From the NCBI RefSeq assembly GCF_900496995.4, contig NW_024470399.1, positions 47,886 to 111,885 of the forward strand: a stretch of 64,000 nt of DNA. The letters run 5' to 3'. Source of the stretch: Aquila chrysaetos chrysaetos. Lineage: Eukaryota; Chordata; Aves; Accipitriformes; Accipitridae. The position numbers and the translations under genes were made by a program. How positions within the stretch are numbered: position 1 is the stretch's first letter; each line of letters opens with the position of its first letter. This document shows positions 451 through 64,000 of this stretch, in pieces. The notes beneath the pieces were generated by a model. The model saw only the letters and a program-made list of their open reading frames with translations, ran no database searches and had not been told where the DNA came from.

Positions 451-1663
451 ATGGAGTTCCCCGAGCACAGCCGGCAGCTGCTGCGGGGACTGCGAGAGCA
501 ACGGGCCCAGGGTTTCCTCTGCGACTGCACCGTGCTGGTGGGCAGCGCCCCGTTCCCGGCTCACCGCGCCGTCCTGGCTGCCTGCAGCGCCTTCTTCCAC
601 ATGTGCTACGCCGAGCGGTTGGACAAAGGCGACTTGGTTTGCCTGAACAGCGAGATCGTCACGCCGCCCGCCTTCGGGCTGCTCCTGGAGTTCATGTACG
701 AGGGGCGGCTGGCGCTGGCTGCCACGCCGCTGGAGGACGTGCTGGCGGCTGCCAGCTACCTGCATATGAACGACGTCGTCAAGCTCTGCAAGAAGAAGCT
801 GCAAGCGCGGGTGCCGGCCGAGGCCGACAGCACCAAGAGGGAGGAGGACGCCCCCGGCAGCCCCCCGCTGCCGCCCGCCGCCCCCCAGCAGCGCCCACCC
901 AGCCCCGGGGTGCCCCTCCTGGCCCTCCCCGGCCCGGCTCCGCAGGCTGGCGGCAGCGAGGAGCAGGGCGCTCCCCCCCCTGAGCTGCCGGCGTCCCGCG
1001 TGGACGTGGCCGACACCACGCAGCCCGGCATGGAGGGCGACTGGCCCCGCGCAGCCCCCCCGGAGGTCCCCCTCCCCAGCCCCAGCAGCTCGACGGAGGC
1101 CACCCCCCCGCGCCGCCTTCCCCGGGGGCGAGCTGCCTGCTCCGGGGGGGCTCTGTGCCGGGCCCTGGGCACCTGCCGCTCCCGGGGGGCTGCTGCCCGC
1201 TGCCGTCAAGGTCGAGGCCATCGTCATCTCCGATGAGGAACCCGAGGCGGGCGCCCGCCGCCCCGCCGGCCTCTTCCCCGGGCCGTCCCGCGCCCCGCGG
1301 CCCACAGCCTTTGGGGAGACGTCGGGAGAACCGCTGCCCTTCGGGCTGCCAGCTCTGCGGGAGCCGCTGTTCTTGCCACCGCTGGAGGGGCGCGGGGGCT
1401 TCGGGCTTTTCGCCGAAGAGGCGCCGACCTGCCCCACCTGCGGGAAAACCTTCTCCTGCTCTTACACCCTGCGCCGCCATGCCACTGTGCACACGCGGGA
1501 GCGTCCCTACGAGTGCCGTCACTGCCTGCGCAGCTACACCCAGTCCGGGGACCTCTACCGCCACATCCGCAAGGCCCACAGCCACGGGTCGACCACCCGC
1601 GGCAGCGGCGGCGGCGGCGGAGCCCACGCCGATCACGATCGCGATTGCGACAACCCGCCCTAA
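451..1663 (+). CDS. ZBTB3: Zinc finger and BTB domain protein 3, one +1 frameshift
   Basis: Nuclear BTB-zinc finger transcription factor. The start is the ATG at 451 in a GACGCCATGG context, opening [11 protein letters not shown] as in ZBTB3. The BTB/POZ domain covers about residues 15-120 ([30 protein letters not shown]). A proline-rich linker follows, then the conserved [14 protein letters not shown], then two C-terminal C2H2 fingers ([17 protein letters not shown] and [17 protein letters not shown]). The coding exon is uninterrupted, as in mammals. The BTB frame stops at 1236 while the fingers lie in another frame. Removing one C from the C7 run at 1103-1109 joins them into 403 residues, against 574 in human from memory, so the linker is short. 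The break looks like a sequence insertion, not decay. Both ends are unmistakably ZBTB3. Confidence 0.93.
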
Positions 1664-1810
1664 ACGGGGACGGGGCGGCGGAGCCGGCGGGCGGCGGGAC
1701 CCGGGGGAGCGCCGGGGGGCGGGGTCTGGGCCATGGGGGCGGAGCCCTGCGACGAGGGGCGGGGCCCTGCGGCGGCGGAGCGGAGCGGGTGTACGGCGGT
1801 CACGTGGGGG

Positions 1811-1816
1811 AATAAA
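1811..1816 (+). terminator. ZBTB3: Polyadenylation signal of ZBTB3
   Basis: Canonical AATAAA about 150 bases after the stop codon on the same strand. Confidence 0.8.
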
Positions 1817-2039
1817 GCGCCGTTGGAAAGGGGCAGCGGGTGATCCCTGAAGGGGGCGGGGCCTGAGGTCACGCCCACGCGGCGCCCCCATTGGCTTTCC
1901 GCGGTCCAATGGTCGAACGCCGCGGCCGGTTTCCCTGTCTGGGCAGGGCGCGTGTTCGCTGGTTACGGTAGCGCCCCCTGGCGGACGGGAGGAGCTCGGG
2001 CAGCCCCCCCCGTCCCCCCGTCCCCGTCCCGTCGCAGTC

Positions 2040-2420
2040 TGAACTGGGCCGAATCCCAGTTCAGCCCAGTCTGGGCCCCAGCCCAACCCAGTCCCAGTCC
2101 CAGCGGGGCGCAGGCACCGACTTGGTCCCGTCCCAGTCCCATCCCAATCCCTCCCTGCCCTGCCCCAGTCTCTCTCAGGTCTACCCCAGTCCCTCCCAGG
2201 CTGTCCCAGTCCCTCCCCATCTCATCCCAGTCTCTCCCACTTCTTCACACTCCCTCCCAGTACTTCATCTCGTCCCAGTCTCTTCCACTCCCTCCTAGTC
2301 CCATCCCAGTCCCTCACATTCCCTCAGTTTTGTCCCAGTCTGTCCCATTCCCTCACACTCTCTCCCACTCCCTCCCCATCTCGTCCCAGTCCCACCCCAG
2401 TCTCTCCCAGTCCCGCACAC
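2040..2420. repeat. CCCAGTCC-type pyrimidine-rich simple repeat
   Basis: Intergenic stretch between the ZBTB3 and RCE1 3' ends. It is a long run of short imperfect units around CCCAGTCCCTCCCA, almost all pyrimidine on the + strand. No gene is seen in 1820-2430. Confidence 0.75.
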
Positions 2421-2435
2421 CAAGGTTTAAAGCAC

Positions 2436-2441
2436 TTTAAT
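2436..2441 (-). terminator. RCE1: Possible RCE1 polyadenylation signal (ATTAAA)
   Basis: ATTAAA on the minus strand, about 90 bases past the corrected RCE1 stop. It is a variant signal and no better candidate lies nearby. Confidence 0.4.
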
Positions 2442-2531
2442 CACAAAAATAGAGCTCTGTGCGGCGGCACCTATAAAAACGGAGTCGGGGGGGAGGAGTC
2501 GGGGGTCCGGGGCGGGCGCCCCGCGCCCGGG

Positions 2532-5500
2532 TCAGGAGCAGGCGGGGGGGGGCCCCCAGACGAGGGGCGCAGACAGGAGCCCCCCCGAAGAAGGCGGGTT
2601 CGGTGAGGGGGTGCAGGAGGAGGAGGAAGAGCAGGACCCCCAGCAGGTAACAGGGGAGCAAGGCCCGACGTCGGGGGTGTTCCAGCGCCGCCCCCACCGC
2701 CGGGAACCCCATCGAGTTGCAGAAGGAGTGACACAGCACCGGGCCCGCCAGGTGGCCTGCGGGACGGACGGACAGACGGACGGACAGAGGGTGGGTGGAC
2801 GGAGGGGCTGAGCCCCCCCCCCCCCCCCAGCCCTGCCCGCGCCCCACCTGTCCTGAGGAAGATGAAGGCCGTGTAGGCGCCGAAGACGGCTGTGTAGGAG
2901 AACTGGAAAGCTGGGGGGGGGGCAGGTGGGGGTGGTCGGGGTGGGTGGGGGCCTGGGCACCCCCATACCCCCCCCCCAGGAACCCTGTATCCCCCCGGGG
3001 CACCCCACACTGCCCCAGGCATCCCACATCCCCCCCCAGACACCCCATATGTCCCTTAAGCACCCTGTGCCCCCCCCAGGCACCCTACACACCCCCTCCC
3101 CACCCCGCATCCCCCCTCGGGCACCCCACTCCACACCAGGCACTCCATATCCCACCCCCCAGCACCCTAAGGACCCCCCTGGGCACCCCATAGGCCCCCC
3201 CCAGGAATCCTGTATCCCTGCAGGGCACCCCACACTGCCCCAGACACCCCAAATCCCCCCCCAGACACCCCAAATGCCCCTTAAACACCCTACACAGCAC
3301 CACCACCCACCTTGGGTACACCACACTCCTTTGGGCCCCCACTCAGGGACCCCAACCTGCCCCAAGCACTCCATATCTGCCCCCCCCCCAGCACCCCAAG
3401 GCCCCCCCCCGGGCACCCCATAGCCCACCCCCCTCCCCGCCGCAACGGTACCTGCCGACATGAAGATGCTACTGACGGAGCCCTGCCGGAACCGGAGCTG
3501 CTCGATGACGTGGTGGAAATGGGCTGGCGGGGGGGGGAAAGAAAGGGGCTGTGAGTGTCGGTTTGGGGGTTCCAGGGTGGGGGGGTGTCCCCGGGGGGGG
3601 ACTGCACTCACCCACGCCGAAGAAGAGGGGGCAGGCGAGGACGGCGGGGCCGGGGCCGGTGCAGGGCACCAGCATGGGCAGCATGCAGGCGCGGAAAACC
3701 AGCTCCTCCGTCAGCGGAGCCACCACCTGGTTCCGCAGCCAGCGCACGTCGCCCAGGCACAGCGCCCAGAAACGGGGGTCTGCGGGAGAAGGAAGCACCC
3801 CAAAACCCACCGCTGCTGACCCCAAAACCCGCTGCCCCGCCTTGGGGTCCCCTGACCCAACAGGTCCCCCCCCCCTCCAAAACCCAACTCGGCCACCCCC
3901 AAGGTCACCACACCTTGTGAAACCCCTCAGGTCCCCAACCACCCCCCCAAAACCCGGTGCCATGTCCCCTTTCCCAACCCCCCGCTGCCCCCCCAAAGCC
4001 CCCACCCTGTTATCCGCCACCCTGCTTGGGACCCCTTACCCACCACCCCCCAGCCCCTGACCCCCCCCTCCCTGAGTCGTGTGTCCCCCCCTTACCGAAA
4101 GCCACCCTGACGCCGTCGAGCCAGCGCCAGGGACAGTCCATGGAGAGCTGGATGAGGGGCCCCAGGAAGAGGATCTGGGGGAGATGGGGGGGTCAGGGGG
4201 GGCTGGGGGACTGTGCCCCCCCCCCCCAGCCCCACACCTACCATGGTGAGCAGCAGCGGCAGGAGCGTGGCCGGCACCAGCCCCTCCAGGCGCAGCCCCA
4301 GCAGCGCCGGCAGCGGGGTGTCCGGCTGCGGGGAGGAAAGGGGGGTCAGCACCGTTCAGGGCGGGGGTGTGTTGTCCCTGTGTGTCCCCCCCCCAAAGCA
4401 CAGCCCCCCCCAACCTCACCTTGACGCCCGTCAGCTCCTTCCAGAGCCAGACGAAGGCCGGGGAGAGCCCCGAGACCACCAGGACGCTGGTGAAACGCCG
4501 CTTGATGACGGACGGGTGGTCCCTGTGGCAGAGGGGGTCAGCATGGGGTGGGGGGGGGGCTGCCCCAACAGCACTCCCCACCCCACAGACACTAAGGAGC
4601 TCTCCTGGGACCCCACAACCCCCCCTTACATACTCTATAAAGCCCCCAATACCCTGAAGACACTCTCCCAGGTACCCTCAATGCACCCCAGACCCCAGAT
4701 ATCCTATAAACCCTCCAGACCCTTCAGGCCCCCCCCAGGTACCCTATAGACCTCCCAGACCCCCCCCCAGGACCCCCAGACCTCCCCCAGGTACATTATA
4801 GACTTCCCAGACTCCCTCACATATCCCATAGACCCTGCCAGGATGCCCATACTTCACCCAGGTATCCTGTAGCCTCCCAGACCCCCCCAGGTACCCTACA
4901 GACCCTCCAGACACCCCCCTAGCACCCCCAGACCTCCTCCAGGTACCGTATAGACCCCCCCAGGACCCCAGACCTCCCCCAGGTACCTTACAGACCCCCT
5001 CAGACATCCCCCAGACCCCCCAACCCCCCCAGACCTCCCCCATGTACCTTATAGACCCCCCCAGACACCCCACAGACTCCCAGGTACCTTATAGACCCCC
5101 CCAGACACCCTACAGATCCCCCGGCCTCCCCCAGGTACCTTATAGACCCCCCCAGACACCCTACAGATCCCCCAGACCCCCCCCTTAGCACCCCCAGATG
5201 TCCTCCAGGTACCTTATAGACCCCCCCAGAGACCCCCCAGACCCCCCTAGGACCCCCAGACCTCCTCCAGGTACCTTACAGACCCCCCCTAGACCCTCCC
5301 AAGAAGTCCCCTCGCCCCCCCGGAGCTACTCCCCTCCGTCGCACCCCCCCCCCCCCCCCCGAGACCCCCGGCCCGTACCGCGGCAGGGGGCTGCCCCAGA
5401 CGTAGAGGCTGCCCACGTAGGAGCAGGCCAGGCTGAGGCAGGCCAGCACGGCGGCCCAGCACGGCCCGGGCCCGGCGGCGGCGGCGGGGGCCGGGCCCGA

Positions 5501-5590: not shown

Positions 5591-5720
5591 GGCGCCGCGG
5601 GGCGGGGCCAGGGGCGGGGCCGGGCGCCGCGGGGCGGGGCGCGGCGGGGCGCCAAGGTTGGGGGGAGGGAGCGGGGCGTGTCAAGGGGCGGGGAGAGGCG
5701 TTGCGGGGCGTGGCCGGGAG
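5591..5720 (-). promoter_or_regulatory. RCE1: RCE1 CpG promoter
   Basis: GC-box-rich sequence (GGGGCGGGGC copies) directly upstream of the RCE1 start codon. No TATA box is seen. The exact start site is not visible. Confidence 0.5.
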
Positions 5721-5729
5721 CGGGGAGGG

Positions 5730-6235: not shown

Positions 6236-6318
6236 GGCTGCCAGGACCAGCTGGGACCAAGTGAACTGGGTGAACTGGGTCAGCACAGGGATATGGTGGG
6301 GGGCTCCGTCCCCGTCCC

Positions 6319-9300
6319 TCAGCCCGTCCACTCGGCCAGGCTGGCCACCTCCCGCTGCCACGCCTGCGGGATGGGGGGGGGGGTCAATGGGGGGGTTAAG
6401 GGGGGGGGCCACCCCTGGGGACCCCCCACCAGTGACAGCCCACCTGGCCCTCGCTGCTCTGGGGACACTCCTCCTCCTTCTCTTCCTCCACCCGTCGTCC
6501 CCTCCGCACATGGGGACCCTCTGGGGACCCTGCGGGGGGTGAAGGGGGTGTAAGGGGCCGGGGGGGGTGGATTCCCTCCCTGCCCCCCCCCCGGCTTGTC
6601 CCTCACCCCGCCGGGTGTCCCCGGGGGTCTCGCAGGAGGCGCAGGGCAGCAGACGCCGGTGGGTGACTTCGGCCAAGCTCCGCCTGACGGCCGCCGCCAG
6701 TGCCGGGGTGTCCTCGACCTGCGGGGACACGGGGAAGGGGTCACCCTCCCCCCCCCCCACACAGAGGCCCCCCCCCCGGAGTCTGTTCCCCCCCACTCCC
6801 AACCTGCATGGTGCGCAGGCAGGCCCGCCGAAAACGGGCGCTGGTGCTGCCGGTCACCACGGCCGTCACCGCGTCCAGCACGACGGGCAAGGACCGTGCC
6901 AGCCGCTCCTGACCCTGCGGGACGGGACGGGAGGGGGGGATCAGGGGGTGTTGGTGGCCCCCCCCCCCAGCACCCACCCCCCCCACACACACCACCGGCA
7001 CCCACCTCGTGCCGACGGCACAGCTCCTCCAGGACGGGGTGGACGAGGGTCCGGAGGCCGGTGGCCAGCGCCGGGCGGCTGCTCAGCAGCGTCTGGTCCA
7101 GGTGGGCCAGCAGTAGCCGGCGAGCGGCTGGGGAGGGCGGCCATCACGCTGGGAGGGGGGGGGGGACACAGCCGGGGACACCCCCAGCCGCCCCCCCCCC
7201 CGCGACACACCGGCGTCGTAAACCTGGAAGGGATCCTCGTGGCGGAGGAAGAGGAAGAGCAGGAGGGTCTGGGGGTGACGGTCCCCCCCCGGGACGCCGG
7301 TTCCGTGCCGCACGGCGTAGGCGGCATCGGGGGTCACCAGCTCTGCGGGGACAAGATGGGGTGCTGGGGGGGGGTACTCCCACCAGCGGGACCCCCTTGC
7401 CATCACCAGACCCCCCCCCCCCCCCCACACACACGCACCTTCCTCGCCCTCCGGCTGCTCACGGGGGGCCGCGGTGAAGCCGAATCGCTCCCAGTCGGCC
7501 AGCCAGGAGGGATCCTGGAAAAACCGGGGTGGGGGCGGCGTGGCCGGTAGCCCCACCGGGTCGTAGAGGAACAAGTAGCCACGGTCAAGGAGAACGGCCT
7601 GGCCCGATGCGTGGCCCCCCCCCCCACCAAAACCCCGAACCCCCCCGCCGGGACCCTGGGATATGGCGGGTGGCGGCAAGGCGGGTGGGCAGGTTTGGGG
7701 TGGGACGGTGGCAGGGGCAGAATGCGGCCGCGGGGACGATGCTCAGTTCCCCCCCCAGGCCCGCCGCGGCGGCCGGGGGGGGGGATGCGTAGACGGATGG
7801 GGGTCCCCAGCGTGGGATGGATCCTGCTGCAAGGGGGGGCGACCCCGGGGTCTGACGGCCTGGAGTTCCGGGGGAGGGGGAGATGGGGGAGGTGGGTGCT
7901 GTGTCCAGCTACCCCCCCCAGGACACCCAGAACCCCAGGGACAGCGGGGACACACCGCCCCCCCCGGCATCACGTCCCTGTCCTCGTCCCCATCCCACTG
8001 ACCCCCCCCCCCCCAGGCACCACATCCCTGTCCCTGTCCCACTGACCCCCCCAGGCACCCTGTCCTGTCCTGCTGACCCCCCCCAGGCACCCCCGTCCTG
8101 CAGACCCCCCCTAGGAACCACATCCCTGTCCTGCTGACCCCCCCCAGACACCCCGTCCCACTGACCCCCCCCCCCCAGGCACCCCATCCCTGTCCCCATC
8201 CCGCTGACCTTGGGCCCCCCCCCAAACCTGTCCCCATCCCTGTCCCACGGACTCTGGGTCACCCAGTCCCTGTCCCACCGACCCCAGCCCCCCCCCACCC
8301 CGTATCCCGGTGACCCCAAGCCCCCCCCCCCTCTTCCTCGAGCCCCCCCCCCATCCCCATCCCCATCCCGTACAGTGCAAAGTGCCGGCTCTGGACCCGC
8401 AGCCGCGCTCCCGCCACGGCCCAGGCGTTCTCCCGCCTGCGGAACCAAGGGAAGGGGCTGGCACCGGGCTGGGACCCCCCCCCCGGGCTGGGGACCCCCC
8501 CCCCACCGTGTCCCCCCGGGGGGGGTGTCCCCAGGGTGGCGGTGGGGGTGTCTCCGGGGGCTCACCCGTAGGTGTGCGAGGCCACGGTGCCGTTCACGCT
8601 GACGCAGAAGTGAAATTCCACCTGGGGGGAGGCGGGGGTCAATGTGGGGACCCCCCCCCACACCCACCCATGGGTGCACCCCGGTGTGTGTGTCCCCCCC
8701 CCCGGGGACGGTACCTCGGGGTGCACCACGCTCGTCTTATGGAGGAACCGCCGCAGGGCGACACAGGCGGGTGACAGCGTGCCGGGGGGGGGGCTGAGCT
8801 GGGGGGGGGAAACAGAGAGCGCCGGGGGGGGGGGGGGGGGCACCCCAATGCACCCCACAAACCGGACACACAACCCCCCGGGTGGCCAGACCCGGGGCGG
8901 GGTGGGGGTCCTGCTTGTTCACACCGGTTTTGGGGGGCCCAGCCCAGCCCCACCAAAGGACTGGGACCAGTTTGGGGGCCCCTTGGCCCTAGTGTGGGTT
9001 TTGGGGTGCTGCCCCCCCCCCCCCCCCACCGGTGACCCCATTCTGCTGTGTGTGTCGTCGCCCCCCCCCCCCAAAACCAGGCCGTCCCAGCTATATTTAT
9101 CCACCCGCCCTACTTGCGGCAGGAGCGGGTGCTCCCGGGGGGCCTCCGGCCCCGATTCTGCCCCCCCCCAAGGTCACCCTGGGGCGTGGGGAAGGAGGGC
9201 GTTTGTTGGGGGGGGGGGGGTGTCGTCCCCCCCCAGCCTCACCTGGAAGGCCAAACGCAGCCGGGCTCGGCGCAGGATCCGGCCGCAGCACAGGGCTGGG

Positions 9301-10353
9301 GTGCTGGGGACCCCCGGTAGCTCCAGCAACCCCCGGGCGGCTGCAAGGAGGGTTGGGGGGGGTTTGGGGTGGGGGGGGTGCACAGTGAGGACCCCCCCTG
9401 AGGGGGGGGGGCTGGGGTCATCTCCTACCTCCCCGCAGGTCTTCGGCCTCGACGCCGCGGCTCAGCTCCCTGCCGGCCGCCACTGGGGGGACAAGGGGGG
9501 TGTCGGGGGTCCCCTCAACCAGAGCCCCCCCCCCCGCACTGTCTCCCCCCCCAGGCCCCCCCCCACGCACCAGTGATGGTGCAGAGGGGCTGGCCCGTGT
9601 CCCCCCCGTCCCCCTCTGCCGCCAGGGCCACCAGCAGGGACCCCCCCCCTCGGCTCACGGCTCTCGGGGGGCCGCAGGCCCAGGAGGAGCCGCTCCAGCA
9701 CCTGTGGGCACCGGCGGCCATGGAGGGGACCCCCCCGACCCCCCCCCATCCTCCCCAGGGACCCCCCAGGACCCCTCCCCAGCCTTCCTAGGGACCCCCA
9801 AAGCCCCCAAACCCCCCCCCCATCCTCCCGAGTGACCCCTGAGCCCCCCTACAGACACCTGAACCCCCCCCATCCTCTCTGGGACCCTTGACCACCCCAG
9901 AGACCGCCCCCGAGACCCCCCAAAACACCCCCCCTCATCCCTCCTAGGGACCCCTGACCACGCCAGAGACCCCCCCAAGCCCCCCCCAATCCTCTCTGGG
10001 ACCCTTGACCCACCCCTGACCCCCCCCAGACCCTCCCTCATCCCTCCTAGGGACCCCTGACCACCCCAGAAACCCCCAAGCCCCCCCCCAGTCCTCTCAG
10101 ACCACCCAAAACCCTCCCTCATCCCTCCTAGGGACCCCTGACCCCCCCCAAGGCCCCCCCCAAGCCCCCCCCAGTCCTTTCTGGGACTCTTGACCCACCC
10201 CCGACCCCCCCCTCATCCTCCCTAGAGACCCCTGACCCCCTCCAAGACCCCCCCCCGGGGACCCCTGACCCCCCCATCCTCCCTAGCCCCCCCCCCGGCC
10301 TCCCCCCTCCCTCTCAGACCCCCCCGCACCGCGCGCACGGCCTCGTCCGCCAT
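6319..10353 (-). CDS. TOP6BL: Type 2 topoisomerase VI subunit B-like (C11orf80)
   Basis: Likely the B-like partner of SPO11 in meiotic double-strand-break formation. It is named from its place between RCE1 and SPTBN2, as in mammals, and from exon content. About 15 minus-strand exons were traced: 10330-10353, 9571-9701, 9429-9482, 9243-9340, 8715-8798, 8566-8621, 8374-8436, one from about 7870 with an unclear end, 7439-7598, 7211-7342, 7006-7127, 6804-6914, 6607-6718, 6444-6529 and 6319-6363. Apart from the unclear exon, phases agree throughout. Recognisable stretches include CVALRRFLHKTSVVHPE and LLDRGYLFLYDPVGLP. The last exon, AWQREVASLAEWTG, resembles the tryptophan-bearing C-terminal helix that binds REC114 in mammals (from memory). 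Single extra bases break the frame at 9641-9649 and probably at 7775-7784. The family match needs a database check. Confidence 0.7.
7915..8300. repeat. Minisatellite in a TOP6BL intron
   Basis: Imperfect units of 25-40 bases built on CCCCAGGCACCACATCCCTG with long poly-C spacers. No exon is seen inside. Confidence 0.7.
9740..10320. repeat. C-rich repeat in TOP6BL intron 1
   Basis: Imperfect units around TAGGGACCCCTGACC with CCCCCC spacers. The minus strand is correspondingly G-rich with many possible quadruplex runs. Confidence 0.7.
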
Positions 10354-11960: not shown

Positions 11961-36132
<24,172 letters not shown>

Positions 36133-44706: not shown

Positions 44707-47700
44707 TCAGAGGCGGCGCTGGTAGCCCGAGTGGACGCGGGTGGCGGGCAGGTAATCGCCGTAGCCGCCCGAGTAACGGGCGTAATCGGCGTGCGCTTCT
44801 GGAAGGCGGCGGTAATCCATCGGGGACTTTGTCGGCGACCGGCGGTACGCGAGCGGCGAGTCCGCTAAGCGGCGGTAATCTGAGAGGTCAGACAGACGGC
44901 GCTCGGAACCGTACCTGGTCGAGAGAAGAGACAGGTGGTGAATGAGGGGGAGGGCGCCTGAATCCGCCGCCGGCGGCGACCGCGTCCTGCCCGGGGACGC
45001 GCCGCGGTGGCATGACACCGCCGGGCTTCGGGCGGGCAGCGCCGCAGGCAAAGCCGGCAGCTCAGGACGGAGAAGCGGCACCCGGCGCACCCACGGGTCA
45101 GGCGCTGGGCGCCATGGGAGGCCTGGCCGCCAGCGAGCGCGTGCCGCCGGCTCCCCCCCCACACCCGGCCCCGGACGAAGCCCCCATCCCCACCCCGCAG
45201 CGCGTGCCCCCCCCAGGAAGCCGGGGGAGGGAGTTACGCGGGGGTCTGCGCCGCGGGAGCAGAGCCACCGCGCCCACGGGCCGGCACGTGGCGCCCGCCC
45301 TTCTGCACGCCGGGCGTTAGCGAGCCGCGCCGGAGCCAAGAGTAAGCCCCGAGCCGGGCGCCGGCATCCACCGGGGCGGCGTGGAGCGAGTCGCGCGGCC
45401 GTCCGGCCCCGGCCCGGCGCCGTACCTTTTTGCCAGAGCGGATGATTTTTTGTACGGGTCGTCGTAGGCGGCGCTGCGAGGCGGGGAGAGGCGGGTGCGC
45501 TCGTAGGGCGGTGCGACGGCGGCGGCCTGCGACAGGCCCAGGTAGGAAGCCGCCTGCTGCCCCAGCTGGCTCGGCCCGTCGTAGGCGCTGCCCGGCTGGG
45601 CTCGGTAGGCGGCCGCCAGCGACGCGGAGGAGGCCTGCTGCGCCGGGTAGGACGCCGCCATCGAGCCGGAGGCCTGGGCCCGGTAGGCGGCCGTCAGCGG
45701 GGCGGAGGCCTGCGCCTTGTAGGAGGCGGCAGCGGCCTGGCTGCCGTAGGAGGCGGCCAGCGAGGAGGCCGCCTGGGCGCCGTAGGTGGCGGAGAGCGCG
45801 GCGGCGGCGGACTGGCTGCCGTAGGAGGCGGGCAGGTTGGCGGCGGGCTGGGCGCCGTAGGAGGCGGAGTGGCCGGCGGCGGGCTGGGCGCCGTAGGAGG
45901 CGGAGAGCGCGGCCGCCGGCTGGGCGCCGTAGGAGGCCGAGTGGCCGGCCACGGGCTGGTAGGCGGCGGCGGTGTGACCGGCCACGGCCTGGGCGCCGTA
46001 GGAGGTGGCGTGCGCGGCCACGGCCTGGGCGCCGTAGGAGGCCGAGAGCGTGGCACCGGGCTGGGCGCCGTAGGAGGCGGCATGACCGTCTACGGGCTGG
46101 GCGCCGTAGGAAGCGGCGTGACCGGCAGCGGCGGCGGCCTGGGCGCCGTAGGAGGCCACGTGCGTGGCCACGGCCTGGGCGCCGTAGGAGGCGGCAGGGC
46201 CGGCGGCGGCCTGGGCGCCGTAGGCGGCGGCGGCGGCCTGGGCGCTGTAGGAGGCGGAGTAGCCGGAGGCGGCCTGCGCCCCGTAGGAGGAGGCCAGGGC
46301 GGCGGACTGGACGCCGTAGCCGGAGAGCTGGGAGGCGGCGGGCTGCGCGCCGTAGGAGGCGGCGGCCTGGGCGCCGTAGGAGCCGAGGGAGTTGGCGGCG
46401 GGCTGCGCGCCGGAGGCGCCGAGGGAGACGGAGGGCTGGGAGCGGTAGGCGCTGCCCAGCGAGGCGGAGGGTTGGGCGCGGTAAGAGGCGGCCTGGCCGG
46501 TGGTGGGCTGCGGGCGGTAGGCCACGCCGAGGGAGGCGGAGGGCTGGGCGCGGTAGGTGGCCCCCAGCGAGGCGGAGGGCTGGGCGCGGTAGGCGGCCGG
46601 CTGCGCCGTCATGGGGAGCGTCACCGCCGCGTAGCCGGCCCGGGTGGGGGAGCGCCGGAGGGGGCTGCGGTCCCTCCCGAAGTAGGAGGGGGAGGCCGGC
46701 CTGGCCTGCGCCTCGAAGGCCTCGTACTTGCCGGCGCCGCCGGTGCCGAAGCGCTGCTGGTAATCGTACAGGGAGGAGGCGGAGGTGTAGCCGGCAGTGG
46801 CGGCCGAGGGGAAGGCGGCGTCTGCCGCCCGGCGCTGCTGGTCGAAGCCCTCGATCTTGGGCTGGAACTTCTCGCGGTACTCCAGGCCGATCCTCTTGTT
46901 CTTGTCGAGGCCGAGGGCGGGCGGCAGGGCCTGGCCCGCGCCCTTCTTCTGGACGTTGGTGGAGAGCTCCACGTTCACTCTGCGCCCCTTCACCTCCTTC
47001 CCGTTAAGGTTTTCGATGGCAACCTTTGCATCTGCTTCGTTCTCCATGTGAACAAATGCATAGTCTGATAAAGCAGCAGACAGAGGGTTATCAGTGGGGG
47101 GAGAAAAGACAATTCGTTACAGGATCGAACGCTTATCGAGCCTCGCCGGGACCGCGGCAGCGTGCGGCTCGGCAGCGGCGGGACAGGCGCCGGGACGGGC
47201 TCTGCCGGCCCCGTTCCGCTGCTGCTGCTGCTCAGGCAGCGAAGAGACAGAACCACCTTCGTTTGCTTCCACCCCACCATTAATTTGGCCGGAGCCTAAC
47301 GAGACCGGCCACCCACCCGGCGTCCCCTGGCTCAGGAACACCCCATCACCGCTTTTTTGCTCTGTTTTCCCCCGCGTTGTCCCTCCCTTCGCCCACACCC
47401 ACCGCAGCCGCTTCTCCCTGCGCCGACGGAGCTCGGCACCCTGCCCTGCGGCTCGGCGGCCTCTCGCCAACAGCAACTCCTCCCTCCCCGTCCTCCGGCA
47501 CCTGGGGACCAAGAGCCCCGGGAGGGCAATGCAGCCCTGCCAGCACCACGGGCTCAGCCGGGCCATCCCACCAGTAAGCGGAGCAAAGCCAGAGAGGGCC
47601 GGCACCCGCCGAGACACCGAGACGTGCCGAGGGGGACGGAGCGCCAGCGACAGGAGAGAGGGAGAGGAGGAGGGGAGGGGGAGAAGGAGAGGAGAGGGGG

Positions 47701-49827
47701 GAGAAGGAAGGGGAGAGCACCCGAGCACAACCTGCGGCACCGCACACCCAGCCGAGCACCCGGGCCAAGGCGAGGAGCCGGGCGAGCAGCACGGCGCGAA
47801 CACGGCACCGAAGCAGAGAGGCGTCAGAAAGGAGATGGAGAGCAAGGCGAGGAGCGGTAGAAGCAGGACCCGGAGCGACCGTGCCGGGTCTGCGGCAGGA
47901 GAGCGGGTCACCCGCAGCACCGCAGGCAGCCTGCCCGTCCCCCAGCGTGGCTCTCGCCACGACACTGTGCCCACGCCAGGTCCAGCAGCCGCCCGTGGCT
48001 CTCAGGCCAACGGTTTCAGGGTTCGGATGCCACCGCAGTAGCCGGGGGGTTGCCCCCGTGGCACGACGGGTCCGGGAGGCCGGCATGGGGTGGAAGGGCG
48101 GCTCCTCTCGGCAACCCCGTGGCATCCCCCCTGCAGTCATGGACCAGGGATCACCGGAACCGGTGCCGCCGGCGACAGCCCACTTTAGCCTACGGCCAGA
48201 AGGCCGGTGTACGGCTTGGCCAGGGCGGCCCATCCAAGGGAGCACGGCATGCTTAGAGCATCGCTCGCTGAGCAAACCCCATCCTGGTACCTCAAGCTCC
48301 AGCTAAACATCAGTGCCGCTTCGCCCACCCTCCCGCGCGTGCCCCCTCCGCTCTGCCATCCCGCCCCTCCCTGGCTCCTATCCCACATCCACGTATCCCG
48401 CTCCGGCAGCCTAAGGAGGGGATGTCTCCTCCGTTCACCCGCCCAGCCCTCCTGCCGCCCCCTTAGGCGGCCGCAGCACTCCCACCCCTCTGTGGGGGAC
48501 CCCACAAATTGGCCACCGGCCAAGGGGATGCCAGAAACTTTTGGCGTGGGTTTGGGGTGGTTTCTGATGGGCTCCGCTGGGAAGCTGCGTCCTGGCGGGA
48601 CGGAGCCGGTGGGCCTGCGACCTGGGACAAGAGAGCAGAGGCAACAACATCACCCTCCCGGGAGGCGGAGGAGCTGACTGGGACGCTGCCGGGGCAGGGG
48701 GGCGGAACGGGACGGGACGGGCACCTCGGGGAGCGGCTGTGTCGGCTGCGTGACATGGGGATGACACCTTTTCCCATCAGGGTCAGGGGGAAGGTGGGAT
48801 GACACTGTCCCCCTGGTCACGCCGTACTGCAGGGTCCCTGATGCGGAGCCCTTCGAGCCCCCTCGGGAGTTTGACAGCGTGGGGGTTTTTTATGGGCTTC
48901 GGCTCTCCCGCCTCGGCTGATGGGCAAGCATCTCGCTCCACGTTGGAGCGTGTTTGTGGAGGTGAAGCCATGGTAGAGTCGCAGTGGGATGGGGAAGGGA
49001 AGCGCCTCACGTCAGGGAAGAATTACAGAGGCAGCAGCAGCGGGTTACCCCCGCCCGGGCTGGGGGGAGGCGAGGAAGGAGGACGTGGCCTGGCTGGAAA
49101 GGCTGGCGAGAGCGCACCCCGGGGGGGGCGTTTAACGGGGCAGAAGGGAGGGATGGGCTCTGGAGAACCCAGAAGGGCTCGCACGGCTCCGGCTGGGGCT
49201 GGCGGCAGGGGACCCAGGGCCCTGCTCCGTGTGCGGGGGCGCCGCCAGATCGGGCCGGGGGCGGTGGAGAGGGGGAGGTAGGGGCGGGGGGGGGGAGCCG
49301 CAGCCAGGCAGACGGAACACGGGTCACCCGAGCCGAGAGCGGGGCCGGAGCGGCTCCGAGGACGGAGGTGAGCGGCGAGCCAGTTGTGGCGGGGACTGAG
49401 CTCGGCGAGGGCTGCGGGGCGGCCCCGGGGGAGGCGAACAGGCTTGTGCGGAGCCCCCGTCCGCGGCGGCGGGTCCGGTACCTTTCACCACGTCGCATTC
49501 GACGACGGTGCCGTACTGCTGGAAAAGCGAGCGCAGCTCGCCGCTGGTGCAGGCGGCCGAGACGTTACCGACGAAGATCTTGCAGGTGTTGGTGGGCCGA
49601 GGCCGGGAGGGCTCGACCACGATGCGGCGACCGTGCAGCTGGTGGCCGTTGAGCTGGGTGATGGCGCGGGCCGCCGCCGCCTCATCCCGGAGGTGCACGA
49701 AAGCGAACTGTTTCATGAGGGCGATGCCGAGCACGGGCCCGGCGGCGCCGGCGAACAGCTCGCTCAGCTCCTCCGCCGTCGCCTCCTCGGGGACGTTGCC
49801 CACGAAGAGCTTTATGCCGGGACGCAT
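44707..49827 (-). CDS. RBM14: RNA-binding protein 14 (CoAA/PSP2), three exons
   Basis: Nuclear coactivator and paraspeckle protein with two RRMs and a prion-like region. Minus-strand exons are 49482-49827, 45426-47064 and 44707-44914, giving 730 residues (669 recalled for human). Exon 1 codes RRM1 ([19 protein letters not shown]) and most of RRM2 ([20 protein letters not shown]). The splice falls inside [11 protein letters not shown]. Exon 2 carries [12 protein letters not shown], repeated [10 protein letters not shown] units, then some thirty SYGAQ(A/P)A(A/V) units that form the low-complexity domain. Exon 3 ends [10 protein letters not shown]...GYQRRL, as in mammals. The extra length lies mainly in the YGAQ repeats. 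It is convergent with RBM4 copy 1 and followed upstream by the CCS 3' end. No frame break was found. Confidence 0.97.
47065..49481 (-). other. RBM14 intron 1
   Basis: 2.4 kb with no supported exon. A purine-rich tract (GGAGAGGAGGGGAGGGGGAG type) at about 47640-47720 is the only clear local structure. ORFs on either strand show no known domain. Confidence 0.6.
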
Positions 49828-50241: not shown

Positions 50242-50260
50242 GCTGTCCCGGGGGCGGCTC

Positions 50261-55096: not shown

Positions 55097-56968
55097 TCAT
55101 CCGAGGCCGTCCTTGACCTGCTGGACAATGCGGGCCCGCACGGCCCGCGCCTCGCTGGACGTCTGCCCGTGGGGGGGCGGCAGGGGTAGGTCGGGCTCGA
55201 TTTCGGGGGGGGGGCAACCCCTCGGGCAGCTCCAACGGCATGCGCCGGCGTAGGGCGATGTTGTGGAGGATACAACAGGCTAAAAAAATCTGACAAACTT
55301 TTTGGGGGGCGTATTGCAGACACCCCCTCCCCTTGTCCAGGCAGCGGAATCGCAGCTTGAGGAGGGCGAGGGTCCGGCGCAGGACGGCCAACGCCTGGTG
55401 GTGCAGCGCGTTGTACCGCTCCTCCGCCGCGCCGCGGGGCGCCGCGATCGGCGTCATCAGCCACGGCTTCAGCGGGTAGCTCCGGTCGCCTGGGGGGGGG
55501 GGACACGCACACGGAACGGGGAGGGTCAGAGAGGTGCGGACCCCCCCCCCCGCCCGCCAGGGGGGAGAGTGGCACAGGGCAAATGGACTGCGGCACGCGC
55601 GATGGCGTGGGGCGGGTGCGTCCCCCCGGTGCCGGGGTGGGGGGGTGGTCTGGGGGTCCGCTGGGCCTGAGGGTCGCCCCCAGACCCCCAAATGACCCCC
55701 AGACCCCCCCCCAGACCCCCAGGTCACCCCCAGACCCCCAAATCACCCCTAGACCCTTGAATCTCACCTACACTCCTGGGTCTCCCCCAGATCCCCAAAT
55801 CACCCCCAGACCCCTGGATCTCACCCAGACCCCCCCCAGACCCCCAGGTCACCCCCAGACCCTCGGGTGACCCCTGAGTCCCCCAAATGATGCCCAGAGC
55901 CCCCCAGACCCCCAAATCACCCCCAGGTCACCCACAAACCCTCAAATCACCCCCAGACTTCCACCAGGCCCCCGGGGTCTCCTCCAGATCCCCAGGTCAC
56001 CCCCAGACCCCCCGGTCACCCCTGAGACCCCCAAATGACTCCCAGAGCCCTGCAGACCCCCGGGGTCTCCCCCAGACCCCCAAATCACCCCCAGACCCCC
56101 CCCCCAGACCCCCGTGCCTCCCCAACCACCCCTCGCACCGTCACCACAGCTCTGGGGCTGCGGGACCCTCCCTTGGAGACCCCCGACCCCCCCGTACCGC
56201 CGCCCCCCCCCCCCCCCGCCTCACCCAGCAGCCAGGCGCCGTCAGGCCGAGCCCCCTCCAGCAGCCGAGCCAAGGCCGAATTCTCCAGGACGGCGGCGTT
56301 GGGGCAAGAACCGGGGAATTTGGCCACCACGTTGGTGATGGTGCCGGCGGCGTCGCACACCACCTGCATGTTCATGGAGTGGTAATTGCCGGCGTTTGCG
56401 GTAAGCCGGTTCGTTTTCGGAAGGAGCCCGTAACGCCACGTGCATGCCGCCCACCAAACCCAACACCCCGGGGAAGGCGCCGGCGACCGTCCCGGCGCGA
56501 GCGGTCGTCGGCGGGAAGGCGATGTACCGCGCCGCCCGCCGCTGCAACGCCTCCAAGAACTGCGCCAGGCAGTTGGACATGGCCGACTGGCTGATGCCGG
56601 TGCTGTCGCGCGTGGCCGTCTGGAAAGAGCCGGAAGCCAAGAAGGTGAGGGCGGAGGTGACCTTAACGGCAACCGGCAGAGCGTGGCTGCGACCCGTCAG
56701 GCTCTCCAGGTCGGCTCCCAGCTCCCGGCACAGCCCGGCGATGGCGGCTTTGTCCAGCCGGTAACGCCGCAGCACCTGCTCCTCGCTCAGGTCCAGGAAG
56801 GAGCAGCGCGCCCGGTACACCCGGTGCTCGGGGTAGAACCGACGACGTCGGCCTCGCTTGCGGCGGGGGGTCGGGACCCCCCCGGGACCCCCCCCGCTCG
56901 TCGCCGCCTCTCCCCCCCCCCGCTCCGCGCTCCCGCACCCGCCGCAGCAGCAGCACCGAGTCCGACAT
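55097..56968 (-). CDS. HARBI1-like (harbinger transposase-derived) protein, catalytic residues lost
   Basis: Two minus-strand exons, 56225-56968 and 55097-55489, code a DDE_Tnp_4-type protein related to HARBI1. Similarity is clear in SGSFQTATRDSTGISQSAMS, WLLGDRSYPLKPWLMTP and LKLRFRCLDKGRGCLQYAP, and in CQIFLACCILHNIALRRRMP. Three single-base insertions break the frame: a G/C run in 56874-56935, the AAA at 56395-56397, and ten G at 55205-55214. Removing them gives 377 residues from MSDSVLLL to KDGLG, near the 349 recalled for human HARBI1. The first catalytic Asp (VDC in HARBI1) is Gly in LVGGMHVAL, and the third acidic residue (VIEKTF) is Arg in VLRRTL; the second Asp (LLGD) is kept. The protein is therefore probably not an active nuclease but a domesticated DNA-binding relative. 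It could also be a decaying copy. Confidence 0.82.
55680..56130. repeat. CCCCCAGACCCCCAAATCA repeat in the HARBI1-like intron
   Basis: Imperfect units of about 18-30 bases that fill the single intron of the HARBI1-like gene. Confidence 0.8.
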
Positions 56969-57390
56969 GGCCCGGGGGCGGGGCTGCGGCGGGAGGGGCG
57001 GGGCTGCGGCGGGAGGGGCGGGGCTGCGGCGGGAGGGGCGGGGCTGCGCGCAGAACGGCGCTGGGCGAGGAGGGGCGGGGCTCTGTGGGAGAGGGGCGGG
57101 GCTCTCGGGGTAAAGGCGGGGCTCTATGGACGGGGATCTGCGGAGAAGGGCGGGGCCCAAAGGGAGAGGGGCGGGGCTCTGGGAGAGAGGGGCGGGGCTC
57201 TGGGGGAGAGGGGCGAGACCCAAGGAAGGGGCGTGGCTCCAGGTTAGGGGCGGGGCTCTACAGTCAGGGCCCTGGGGAGAAGGGCGGGGCCCTAAGGGAG
57301 AGGGGTGGAGCTCTAGGTGAGGGGCGGGGCTCTACGGACACGGCTCTAGGGAGAGGGGCGGGGCGCGAAGGGGCGGGGCTAGGCCCAGTG
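56969..57390. repeat. Tandem GC-box array
   Basis: More than fifteen GGGGCGGGGC or GGGCGGGGCT elements at 20-30 base spacing. The first four are exact 20-base copies of GGGAGGGGCGGGGCTGCGGC. It lies between the divergent HARBI1-like and RBM4 copy 2 genes. Confidence 0.85.
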
Positions 57391-58494: not shown

Positions 58495-60631
58495 ATGGTG
58501 AAGCTGTTCATCGGGAACCTGCCGCGGGAGGCGACGGAGCAGGAGATCCGCTCCCTCTTCGAGCAGTACGGGAAGGTGCTGGAGTGCGACATCATCAAGA
58601 ACTACGGCTTCGTCCACATCGAGGACAAGACGGCGGCCGAGGACGCCATCCGCAACCTGCACCACCACAAGCTGCACGGCGTCTGCATCAACGTGGAGGC
58701 CAGCAAGAACAAGAGCAAGGCCTCCACCAAACTGCACGTCGGCAACATCAGCCCCGCCTGCACCAACCTGGAGCTGCGGGCCAAGTTCGAGGAGTACGGC
58801 CCCGTCATCGAGTGCGACATCGTCAAGGATTATGCCTTCGTTCACATGGAGCGGGCGGAGGACGCGGTGGAGGCCATCCGTGGGCTGGATAACACCGAAT
58901 TCCAAGGTGATCTGGGCCACGGCCCTGGGCTGGGATAGGTAGCACCGGGCTGGGCCCGGAGGAAGCAGGTCAGGTAGGGGAGAAAGGCGTAGGGCCGTCC
59001 CGGCGCATGGGGGAAGATCCTGCTCCGGCCCTCCTCTCCCTGGTGCCGCTCCACGAGGGTTTTCTGCTGGTGCGGGGCCGGATTTGCGCCGCTGTCGCGT
59101 ACCTGGCGCCAGACCTCGCGCGCGGTGGCCGTGGCAGCTGATGCCGCAAGGGACGACTGGCGCGGTCGTGACTGCCGCCACGTTCCAGCCCCAGGGGCGT
59201 TCGGTGCCTTTTTTATCTTCTTGGCGCTCTGGGCTTTGGCTCCTGGGGGGCGGGTGGTGCTGGCACGTGGCTTCGGAGAGAGCTGTGTCCCTCCGCCGGC
59301 ACCCACCGCGTTCCCGGCAGCGCCGCGCTACCTCCCGTGTCGCTCGGCTGGTGGTCTGTCCGCGGGGTCAGTGTTGGCGCGGTGGCTTTGTCTCAAGACA
59401 CAGAGCGGTTTTGCAGCAGTGTTTTTTGTAGGAAAAGGGTGAGATTTGTTCCAAAAATGGCAGGTTTGGCGTGAGCTCCGCCCCTGTGAACTCTTCCAGG
59501 GCTTGTGGCGCAGCAGGGACCCGTGGGGCATCCCTGCTCTGGTCTGTGCCGCTGGCAGGCTGCGAAGCTGGGGGGAAAAAGGGCGATGAAGGGAAAACTG
59601 GATCCGGGGAGCCGCAGGTGGACCCTGGTGCGGGACAGGCAGTGCCCCGCGGTGTCGTGTCGGTGCCCGAGTGCCGCTTCCCGTGTCCGGGTGGTGCCGG
59701 GGCGGCTCTTCCTCTGCCGTGGCTCGCGGTGCCGCCCGAATCCGTGGCGAACCCCCCCGGTTCTGCGGGGCGCGGGGTCACCGGCGCAGGCAGAGGCGGT
59801 TCGGTTCCCTCCCTGCCCGCAGAGGTGCCGGCCGATGGCTCGTCGGGGAGCCCGGGGAGAGGTGCCGGCCGGCGCCGGCCGCCCTCCCCGCCGCCGCGGT
59901 TAACCACAGCCTCTCCCCTCTCGCGTCTCTTTCCTCAAGGCAAGCGGATGCGCGTGCAGTTGTCCACCAGCCGGCTCCGGACGGCGCCCGGGATGGGAGA
60001 CAAGAGCGGCTGCTACCGCTGCGGGAAGGAAGGGCACTGGTCTAAAGAGTGCCCGGTAGATCGCCCGGGGCAAGTGGCGGACTTTGCCGAGGCCTATAAC
60101 GAGCAGTACGGAGCCGTGCGCACTCCCTACACCGCGGGCTATGGGGAGACCGTGTATTACGATGAGGCGTACGGCGGGATGGCCGACTACTACAAGCGCT
60201 ACCGCGTCCGCTCCTACGCCACGGCCTCTGCGTACGACGCCTACGCGGAGCAGACCATGGCCCAGTACTCCCAGTACGCCCAGTACTCCCAGGTCCAGTC
60301 CTCGGCCATGGCCGCCACCACAGCCATGGCCAGTCGCATCCCCACCACCCTAGACGCGTACGATAGAGCTCTGCTGCCGACCCCGGGCGCGGCGGCCGCC
60401 GTCGCCGCCGCCGCCACCGCCGCCGCGGCGGCCGCCTCCTCCACCTATTACACCCGGGATAGAAGCCCCCTGCGCCGCACGGCCGCCGCGGCCACCACCG
60501 TCGGAGAGGCGTACACGTACGAGCGTGGGCAGCTGTCGCCGGTCTCCTCGGTGGCCCGGGCCTCCCTCTACGACATGCAGCGGTTCGAGCGGGACCCCTA
60601 CGGGGAGCGGGCGCGGTACTCTGCCTTTTGA
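58495..60631 (+). CDS. RBM4B: RNA-binding protein 4 type gene, copy 2
   Basis: Same two-coding-exon plan as copy 1: 58495-58906 and 59940-60631, 367 residues, with two RRMs, a CCHC knuckle and the alanine/tyrosine-rich tail. Base by base, the first coding exon is identical to copy 1. The second differs at five positions, one silent change near 60089 and four close to the end, giving [15 protein letters not shown] instead of [15 protein letters not shown]. Introns differ in length and sequence. The symbol is provisional: copy 1 has the RBM4B position, so either name could apply to either gene. Both encode nearly the same protein and presumably act in splicing control. A 3'UTR intron runs from 60639 to 61107. 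Confidence 0.93.
58907..59939 (+). other. RBM4 copy 2 intron between coding exons
   Basis: 1.0 kb with no supported exon and no strong repeat. Similarity to copy 1 begins only about 25 bases before the acceptor. Confidence 0.6.
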
Positions 60632-61107: not shown

Positions 61108-61340
61108 GTCCGGCGGCCTCGGACGGAGCCCTCGCCCCCCCCCACCGCCTGCGCCCCCCCTTTTTGTACGGAGCTTCCCCAGACCCACCCCCCGCACCCC
61201 CCTGGGGCCTCACTGCCCCCCTCCCCGAGGATGGGACCCCCCCCCGGCCCCATCTTCCTCCCCCTCGGGGTGCTCACAGCCCCCCATCCCCCCCCCTCCT
61301 CCAATTTTCCAGCAAAATAAAGGTTTTCACCGACTCCTGT
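61108..61340 (+). other. RBM4B: RBM4 copy 2 terminal untranslated exon
   Basis: The acceptor CTCTCTTCCAG ends at 61107, and the poly(A) signal AATAAA lies at 61316-61321. Apart from the splice design it is unlike the terminal exon of copy 1. Confidence 0.65.
61316..61321 (+). terminator. RBM4B: Polyadenylation signal of RBM4 copy 2
   Basis: AATAAA in AGCAAAATAAAGG context at the end of the terminal exon. Confidence 0.8.
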
Positions 61341-61708
61341 GTCTGCCTGTCTTTTGTGGGGGAGGTGTGTGTGTCATTCCCCAGTGCTGGGACCCCCCCC
61401 CCCTCTATCCCGCACAAGGCTGGGGGGGACACACACAAGGGGACACCCCCCCCAGCCCCGTTCTTGAGGTCTGCGAGGGGGGGGAACTGGGGGTGGCACG
61501 GACCCGTTTCGGCGCCGGACCCTGTTCCGTGTCTGACCCCTTTCGCGGACGGACCCGTTTCCGGGCCGGACCCGTTTCCGGGTGGGACCGCCGGACCCTT
61601 TTTGGCGCCCGCGCCGTTTTTTTTAAGCGCCGCCCGCCGCCGGTTTCCATCCGGGTCTGTCTCTTCCCGTGACGTCAGTTCCGGCGCGGCACCGTCTCCT
61701 CAGCGACC
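61341..61708 (+). promoter_or_regulatory. ZNRD2: RBM4 copy 2 / ZNRD2 intergenic region with ZNRD2 promoter
   Basis: About 370 bases hold CCGTTTCCGGGCCGGA-type repeats (61500-61610) and a GTGACGTCAG element (CRE/ATF type) at about 61669, 40 bases before the ZNRD2 ATG. No gene is seen. Confidence 0.55.
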
Positions 61709-64000
61709 ATGGCGCTGAACGCGGGTGCGGGCGGGGCCGGGACCCCCCGAGACCCCCCCCGGGCCCCCCTCCACCCTCCGGGCCCCCCCCCACACCCCTT
61801 GGACCCCCCCCCTCCCGCCGGTCCGGGCCCCCCCTCAGCCCTTCCCGGCCCACCCCGCCCCGTTCCGGGACCCTCCCACGACCCCCGAGGCCCTCCCCAC
61901 CCCTTGAGCCCCCTCCTCCCGCCGGTCTGGGCCCCCCCCCCCCGCGCACTCGGGCCCCCCTAACCCCCCCCCCCCCCCCACGTTCCGGGACCCCCCCCGG
62001 GCCCCGTTCCCCCCCCCCCCAGGGCCCCGCTCCCCGTGGCCGCGTTCCCCCCTTCACCCCGGGATCCCCCGTGTCCCGTGTGTGTGTTCCCCCCCCCACC
62101 GGTGACCCCCCCCCCGTGTCCCGCAGGCGCGGAGCCGTCCCCGTTGGCGGCGGAGCTGGAGGCGCGGCGGGGGCGGCAGGAGCGGGTCAGCCGGGCCATG
62201 GGGCAGCTGCTGCTGCGGGGGTACCGCATGCTGGGGCGGTGCTGCCCCCACTGCGGGGTGCGCAACGGGGGGGGCTTGGGGGGTGGGAGTGGGGCTGGGA
62301 ACGGGGATATGGGACAGGGGAGTGGGGCTGTGCGGCTGGGAGTGAGGGTGGGAATGGCGCTGGAATATGGGGCTGGGAACGGGGCTGTGGGGCTGGGAAC
62401 GGGGATATGGGGCTGGGAATGGGGATATGGGGCTGGGAACGGGGCTGTGGGGCTGGGAACGGGGATATGGGGCTGGGAACGGGGCTGTGGGGCTGGGAAC
62501 GGGGCTGTGGGGCTGGGAACGGGGCTGTGGGGCTGGGAACGGGGATATGGGGCTGGGAACGGGGCTGTGGGGCTGGGAACGGGGATATGGGGCTGGGAAC
62601 GGGGCTGTGGGGCTGGGAACGGGGCTGTGGGGCTGGGAACGGGGATATGGGGCTGGGAACGGGGCTGTGGGGCTGGGAACGGGGGCTGTGGGGCTGGGAA
62701 CGGGGATATGGGGCTGGGAACGGGGCTGTGGGGCTGGGAACGGGGCTGTGGGGCTGGGAACGGGGCTGTGGGGCTGGGAACGGGGATATGGGGCTGGGAA
62801 CGGGGGCTGTGGGGCTGGGAACGGGGATATGGGGCTGGGAACGGGGCTGTGGGGCTGGGAACGGGGCTGTGGGGCTGGGAATGGGGATATGGGGCTGGGA
62901 ACGGGGCTGTGGGGCTGGGAACGGGGATATGGGGCTGGGAACGGGGCTGTGGGGCTGGGAACGGGGCTGTGGGGCTGGGAACAGGGATATGGGGCTGGGA
63001 ACGGGGCTGTGGGGCTGGGAACGGGGCTGTGGGGCTGGGAATGGGGATATGGGGCTGGGAACGGGGCTGTGGGGCTGGGAACGGGGCTGTGGGGCTGGGA
63101 ATGGGGATATGGGGCTGGGAACGGGGCTGTGGGGCTGGGAACGGGGATATGGGGGTGGGAACGGGGCTGTGGGGCTGGGAACGGGGATATGGGGCTGGGA
63201 ACGGGGCTGTGGGGCTGGGAACGGGGCTGTGGGGCTGGGAACGGGGCTGTGGGGCTGGGAATGGGGATATGGGGCTGGGAACGGGGCTGTGGGGCTGGGA
63301 ACGGGGATATGGGGCTGGGAACGGGGCTGTGGGGCTGGGAATGGGGATATGGGGCTGGGAATGGGGCTGTGGGGCTGGGAGTGAGGGTGGGAATGGGGCT
63401 GTGGGGCTGTAATATGGGGCTGGGAATGGGGCTGTGGGACTGGGTTGGGGGCTATGGGGCTGTGGGGCTGGGAGTGGGGCTGTGGGTCTAGGTTGGGGGC
63501 TGTGGGGCAGGACTGTGGGGCCGGCACAGGCCGCCGGGGCCACTCTGACCCCCCCCCCCCGTGTCCGTCCGTCCCCCCCCCAGGACCATCCTGCTGCAGG
63601 ACAAACAGCAGCAGCTCTACTGCGTGACCTGTCAGGAGCTGGACTGCGACGGGGAGGGGGGCGGCCCCGGTAGGGACCGGGGGCGGGGGGGCGGCCGGGC
63701 TTGTGGGGGGGGGGGGGGCAGCTGGGGGGGGGGGGGGACAGGGCTGGGGGGGTCTGGGGGGTCTGGGGAATCGGTAAAGGGGACAGGGCTGGGGCTGGGG
63801 GGAGTCCAGACTGGGGGGGGGCTCTGGACTGAGGGGGGGGGGTCCATCCCCGCCTGACCCCGTCATTCCATCCTACAGCGCCGGAGCCCCCAGCCGCCCC
63901 CTCACCGCCCCCGCTCCAGCCTGCCGCCCCCCGTCCCGAGCACTGCGAGGGAGCGGCGACGGGCTTACGGGGGGCTTCGGCTTCTTCTTCTTCTGACCCC
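61709..64000 (+). CDS. ZNRD2: Zinc ribbon domain-containing protein 2 (SSSCA1/p27), 3' end cut off
   Basis: Small zinc-ribbon protein, a Sjogren/scleroderma autoantigen in humans. Exons are 61709-61724 (MALNA), 62127-62257, 63584-63669 and from 63879 to the window edge. The core is GQLLLRGYRMLGRCCPHCG then TILLQDKQQQLYCVTCQELD, which carries the four zinc cysteines (CPHC and CVTC). The last visible exon contains AAPRPEHCEGAATGL, matching human ZNRD2. Exon 2 is one base too long for the phase of exon 3: the GGGG at 62255-62258 should be GGG. With that base removed CG joins TILL. The stop codon lies outside the window. Confidence 0.94.
62280..63460. repeat. 20-bp two-variant minisatellite in ZNRD2 intron 2
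   Basis: About fifty-five 20-base units of two kinds: A, GGGGCTGTGGGGCTGGGAAC, and B, GGGGATATGGGGCTGGGAAC. Many stretches follow a B-A-A order (60-base period), with changes near the ends. All three frames stay open, so very long false ORFs appear on both strands. Confidence 0.95.

Follow-up and report, generated by a model that had tools for sequence, protein, structure and literature searches.

Frame breaks in conserved genes of a GC-rich Aquila chrysaetos chrysaetos contig as probable extra-base errors of the consensus

The last 64,000 bases of contig NW_024470399.1 of the Aquila chrysaetos chrysaetos assembly GCF_900496995.4, here called the window, carry conserved genes whose reading frames are broken by single bases. 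The contig (C107) is 111,885 bases long, and letter counts put the G+C content of the window at 71%. The breaks are very probably consensus base-calling errors, each an extra base, and the contig that carries them is small, unplaced and very rich in G+C. A preliminary description of the window had listed twelve breaks, each mended by removing one base, in ZBTB3, RCE1, TOP6BL, SPTBN2, a HARBI1-like gene and ZNRD2, and had ascribed them to an insertion-biased sequencing or assembly error. Eleven of the twelve stand, with strong to moderate support; the twelfth, in TOP6BL, had no Pfam match in either version. The bias itself extends to sites absent from that list, with extra bases also in two further C107 genes, MTA2 and GANAB, and in SPTBN4 on another contig (C118); a shift of the opposite class in an SPTB gene on a third contig (C89) sets its limit.

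Thirteen shifts were accepted on C107 in 23,729 coding nucleotides of 14 genes, a rate equal to Q32.6, and all are +1. SPTBN2 has four, the HARBI1-like gene three, MTA2 two, and ZBTB3, RCE1, ZNRD2 and GANAB one each. With the TOP6BL site at 7775 added, 14 of 14 are +1 (two-sided sign probability 0.00012), a generous test because 11 of the 14 came from a list of one-base fixes. Shifts found independently of the list were two in MTA2, one in GANAB, two in SPTBN4 and one in SPTB, and five of these six are +1. The aligned frames on C107 contained no accepted lost-base shift and no stop codon. Seven of the 14 genes (two RBM4 copies, RBM14, CCS, B3GAT3, TAF6L and CCDC87) have no accepted shift; nor do TUT1 and EML3, aligned partly, to pieces derived from PDB entries. 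The controls in the window are:

38347-41186, plus strand: RBM4 copy 1, intact (aligner)
58495-60628, plus strand: RBM4 copy 2, intact (aligner)
45416-49815, minus strand: RBM14, no break up to query residue 604 of 669 (aligner)

Shifts were called with a self-written spliced protein-to-DNA aligner, in which frame steps are permitted at a cost, applied to genes with a reference. A "-2" step of the aligner is of the same class as one extra base (+1). Pfam matches, exon phase and the exon lengths of paralogues provided further lines of evidence. Most references were presumed human protein sequences, whose agreement with the DNA shows them to be sound: 605 of 667 residues are identical in MTA2 and 664 of 931 in GANAB, and an SPTBN1-based query agrees with SPTBN1 of this genome at 569 of 628 residues in one alignment and 782 of 819 in the other. 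Some exon ends of the coding set were set by hand, and four genes are covered in part: RBM14 to residue 604 of 669, CCS over residues 85-272 of 274, TAF6L as 375 residues with X between PDB pieces, and CCDC87 as an open frame only. The exons so set add up to 7094 nucleotides for SPTBN2 and 1132 for the HARBI1-like gene, against totals of 7107 and 1134 in the preliminary description.

SPTBN2 has the largest number of shifts. Its aligned frames contain four, all of the one-extra-base class and lying at, or within about 10 bases of, the positions listed earlier.

11979-36129, plus strand: SPTBN2 gene, 35 aligner exons
24778-24780, plus strand: +1 inside a spectrin repeat, GGG; aligner, reading frames and paralogue exon length
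32265-32274, plus strand: +1 in the linker, C10; aligner range 32256-32274
33084-33092, plus strand: +1 in the linker, G9; aligner range 33084-33097
33132-33139, plus strand: +1 in the linker, C8; aligner range 33132-33140, printed as -2

The three lines of evidence at 24778-24780 argue strongly for an extra base there, and a codon hidden Markov model also drew a shift at 24779. The linker sites are backed by frame reading and by the presumed human SPTBN2 linker; the exon ends given by the aligner in this linker are unreliable.

The breaks in ZBTB3, RCE1, TOP6BL and ZNRD2 are backed by evidence of different kinds.

1103-1109, plus strand: ZBTB3 frame break, +1, C7; aligner step printed as -2
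2544-2552, minus strand: RCE1, G9 close to the stop codon, probable extra base; C-terminal residues judged by eye
7775-7784, minus strand: TOP6BL frame break, +1, G10; Pfam DUF4554
9641-9649, minus strand: TOP6BL, suspected +1, C9; by eye
62255-62258, plus strand: ZNRD2, +1 at an exon end, GGGG; exon phase

In ZBTB3 the frame of the BTB domain and that of the later zinc fingers differ by +1, and the extra base could equally be placed in the G7 at 1144-1150. The RCE1 site lies past the end of the aligner match and was not called by the aligner. Removing one base there yields a C-terminus ...APPACS (stop) that resembles the end of human RCE1, presumably ...APLCS (stop), and gives moderate support for an extra base. 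In TOP6BL the DUF4554 match rises from 16.7 bits (profile positions 63-90) to 47.1 bits (63-125) when a one-base step is allowed, and the longer match runs across 7775-7784, which supports an extra base at this site. At 9641-9649 neither the corrected nor the uncorrected version matched Pfam.

The HARBI1-like gene has three probable extra bases.

55205-55214, minus strand: C-terminal +1, G10; aligner step printed as -2 nearby
56395-56397, minus strand: conserved-core +1, somewhere within TTT (AAA in gene orientation)
56874-56935, minus strand: N-terminal +1, frame change; C7, C8 and C10 runs are possible places

The case for an extra base is strong at 56395-56397 and moderate at 55205-55214. 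The gene (55100-57000) has 38-46% identity to the presumed human HARBI1 sequence, and is probably a separate domesticated transposase gene.

Outside the window, alignment and frame reading found three more +1 shifts on C107. One in MTA2 lies before the last ~18 residues, and another frame there yields the conserved EPIVLED end; the second MTA2 shift, at an exon end, was called by phase. The GANAB shift is at an acceptor G run. The MTA2 sites are at C107 16,180-16,225 and 17,790-17,805, and the GANAB site is at about 44,742-44,751. The genome also holds at least four beta-spectrin paralogues, whose exon lengths could be compared with no recourse to the human references. Three of 18 lengths differ modulo 3, and all three are on the GC-rich contigs C107 and C118. 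One is an SPTBN2 exon of 758 nucleotides, compared with 757 in SPTBN1 and 760 in SPTBN4. The other two are SPTBN4 core exons of 304 and 265 nucleotides, against 303 and 264 in SPTBN2, with one paralogue pair comparable for each; reading frames place the extra base in SPTBN4, giving two shifts, both +1. The analysed stretch of C118 has 68.5% G+C. In SPTBN1, on macrochromosome C8 (42% G+C), alignments of 628 and 819 residues (~4.3 kb) are free of shifts.

The SPTB gene on C89 (62% G+C) behaved differently. One of its core exons has 759 nucleotides compared with 757 in SPTBN1, and the shift, at position 9474 of the joined pieces L014 and L016, represents two extra bases or one lost. The +1 rule has therefore been shown for C107 and C118 only. 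By G+C content, C107 and C118 are affected, SPTBN1 is clean and SPTB has one shift, with a single gene representing 42% G+C; this would fit a higher error rate in GC-rich, poorly covered contigs. C89 has two SPTB copies in opposite orientation (L014, L015, L016; 371001-381000 and 509001-514500), which read in frame across the aligned core exons apart from that one shift. The second copy is free of shifts over 744 aligned residues, a stretch that excludes the exon concerned. The copies, with long pieces 82-95% alike, were taken to be paralogues and not haplotypes.

Several calls of the programs were discarded. A single open frame was found at the +2 call in the RCE1 N-terminus and at the +2 call in the GANAB linker, where the phases also agree. 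Three +1 calls in ZBTB3 past the zinc fingers and five in the SPTBN4 linker (8819 -1, 8926 +1, 8984 +1, 9000 +1, 9391 -2) were dropped after frame reading, and a -2 call in TUT1 falls in a run of X. For two calls in L013 (3180 +2, 3142 +1) the genuine SPTBN1 exons fall beyond the analysed stretch, and for three in the SPTB linker (567 +1, 506 -1, 471 +1) the query is not homologous. No homology support was found for the codon model's shifts at C107 22641 (+1), at window 37265 (+1), at window 30109 (-1) and 30167 (+1) in an intron, or at 32244 (-1) in a 23-nucleotide piece.

Most accepted shifts lie in or close to G/C runs of 7-10 bases, and the others are at short repeats. A census of the coding exons of the 14 C107 genes found 34 G/C runs of at least seven bases. 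Ten-base runs lie at or within broken stretches in three of three cases (SPTBN2 32265, HARBI1-like 55205 and 56912) and nine-base runs in three of six (SPTBN2 33084, RCE1 2544 and GANAB), with one MTA2 run a possible fourth. Among the seven eight-base runs, SPTBN2 33132 is in a broken stretch and two others may be, and among the 18 seven-base runs there are few, the ZBTB3 and HARBI1-like candidates being those that may be in broken stretches. This excess at long homopolymers is given as counts, without a statistical test, and is partly built in, as an insertion lengthens its own run. Short repeats account for about four of the C107 shifts, the repeats being GGG, GGGG, AAA (gene strand) and, in MTA2, five Cs of the plus strand. 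The listed places read as previously described; 24778-24780 is GGG, 56395-56397 TTT and 62255-62258 GGGG, so the breaks are not all in long G/C runs. The exons of the RBM4 pair, compared with each other, show no indel; they contain no G/C run of seven or more, and the comparison thus says little.

Second copies were searched for in the 1.234-Gb assembly of 144 contigs for four genes, the search not extending to RCE1, GANAB, TOP6BL, ZNRD2 or SPTBN4. None was found for ZBTB3 (window 1000-2000), the HARBI1-like stretch, MTA2 or SPTBN2 (exon 22645-23515); the other matches of SPTBN2 are paralogues at 66-75%. Redundant pseudogene copies are thus unlikely for these four genes, and frame breaks in conserved genes lacking a second copy are what a consensus error would leave. 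Protein sequence on either side of the breaks is well preserved; MTA2, for example, shares 605 of 667 aligned residues with the presumed human protein.

Consensus error accounts for the direction of the shifts, their dependence on run length, their occurrence on two contigs rich in G+C and the intact state of genes that lack long runs, such as RBM4. The base caller would write one base too many, mostly at G/C runs of 7-10 and sometimes at short repeats. Short reads drop out at 70% G+C, which probably left such errors uncorrected. The animal's own DNA would then lack the extra bases; the sequencing technology behind the errors is likewise a presumption. Several points weigh against this explanation. 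Exon phase is the sole evidence at ZNRD2 62255-62258 and at one of the MTA2 sites, and a frame change the sole evidence for the N-terminal shift of the HARBI1-like gene. The uncorrected RCE1 frame is also open past 2544-2552, giving an altered end and not a disruption. Eleven of the C107 shifts were pre-selected, as said above, and several references are presumed human sequences. The controls are few, amounting to one 42%-GC gene and the 62%-GC SPTB, which itself carries a shift of the opposite class.

Slippage mutates long G/C runs. The breaks could then be real mutations of a fast-mutating dot chromosome, leaving pseudogenes or segregating null alleles, and avian dot chromosomes are indeed described as having gene loss and unstable intron repeats (PMC12954441). 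This is very unlikely here. Losses of bases would be expected beside gains, yet the direction is one-sided on C107 and C118; the four genes searched showed no second copy, and the proteins are conserved around the breaks. SPTBN2 would have to hold four separate breaks, yet its aligned frames have no stop codon, and the stop codons and mixed losses and gains of a pseudogene were not seen on C107. A related view, in which some extra bases are real and coding G/C runs of this dot-chromosome-like contig gain bases in the animal, much as introns stutter but at the level of single bases, and so break conserved genes, is given only a slender chance. Real extra bases might also be bypassed by programmed +1 ribosomal frameshifting or by RNA processing. 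Known programmed +1 sites share the direction seen in all accepted C107 shifts. No motif is shared among the breaks, however, whose contexts range from G10 to GGG, AAA and GGGG; they occur in many genes on two contigs, with up to four per gene, and in SPTBN1 the exon that corresponds to the broken one of SPTBN2 is free of shifts. Bypass is therefore given almost no weight.

Part of the list may instead be misread gene structure, namely the use of other splice sites, divergence of linkers or an extended C-terminus. For RCE1, ZNRD2, the HARBI1-like N-terminus and TOP6BL 9641 the calls come from phase or weakly conserved sequence, and the aligner also called shifts, later dropped, in such stretches. 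Misreading fails for the breaks within conserved sequence: SPTBN2 24778, HARBI1-like 56395, TOP6BL 7775, ZBTB3 and the MTA2 C-terminus. It is improbable, and consensus error remains the preferred explanation.

The gene content of C107 was established from tblastn, Pfam and PDB matches and by eye. The contig holds TAF6L, TUT1, MTA2, EML3, B3GAT3, GANAB, ZBTB3, RCE1, TOP6BL, SPTBN2, two RBM4 copies, RBM14, CCS, CCDC87, the HARBI1-like gene and ZNRD2. Several of these names are presumptive; CCDC87 has no Pfam match. The GC-rich, gene-dense sequence, the gene content and the genome size suggest that C107 comes from a bird dot chromosome. An Rfam scan of the window at gathering thresholds gave no match. 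The two RBM4-type genes are identical at 412 of 412 positions in coding exon 1 and have five mismatches in 689 in exon 2; their similarity ends within ~40 bases of the exons, which looks like exon-limited gene conversion. Large tandem arrays occupy introns of SPTBN2 and ZNRD2:

16321-17503: intronic tandem array
19901-21534: intronic tandem array, 48-bp unit repeated 34 times
23847-24445: intronic tandem array
26406-27079: intronic tandem array
28171-29292: intronic tandem array
30961-31649: intronic tandem array
62290-63524: intronic tandem array

Comparison of the seven arrays with 15 nearby exons gave a best match of 13 bases (E 0.01), and no sign that the arrays derive from these exons.

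Read as consensus errors, the breaks are an artefact of an already known kind, with no new biology, and their value is practical only, as a caution for annotation and for gene-loss counts. Automatic annotation would probably turn SPTBN2, MTA2, GANAB, ZBTB3 and SPTBN4 into pseudogenes or add introns of 1-2 bases. For birds, such errors would inflate the number of genes counted as lost on GC-rich dot chromosomes, where real loss is studied.

Related systems have been described. Bird dot chromosomes suffer dropout of PacBio high-fidelity (HiFi) reads (PMC13320880), and an early assembler introduced indels on merging haplotypes (PMC5632298). The "sequence stuttering" of introns on chicken dot chromosomes (PMC12954441) resembles the large intronic tandem arrays in the GC-rich genes of the window. 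It consists of intron expansions, unlike the breaks described here, and neither "frameshift" nor "homopolymer" appears in the main text of that paper. PacBio continuous long-read (CLR) contigs before polishing have a quality of Q30-35, and short indels leading to frameshifts are their commonest error (PMC8081667). The rate here, ~Q33, and the outcome, false frameshifts, are similar; the passages of PMC8081667 on these contigs do not state the direction of error. A further case is a GC-rich exon of PCDH17 in an earlier assembly of the zebra finch, where false insertions were annotated as introns of 1-2 bp (PMC9516821). Those errors were assessed by comparison with a newer assembly and with mapped reads, whereas homology alone served for the unplaced contig described here. 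In both, extra bases in GC-rich coding DNA appear to break the reading frames.

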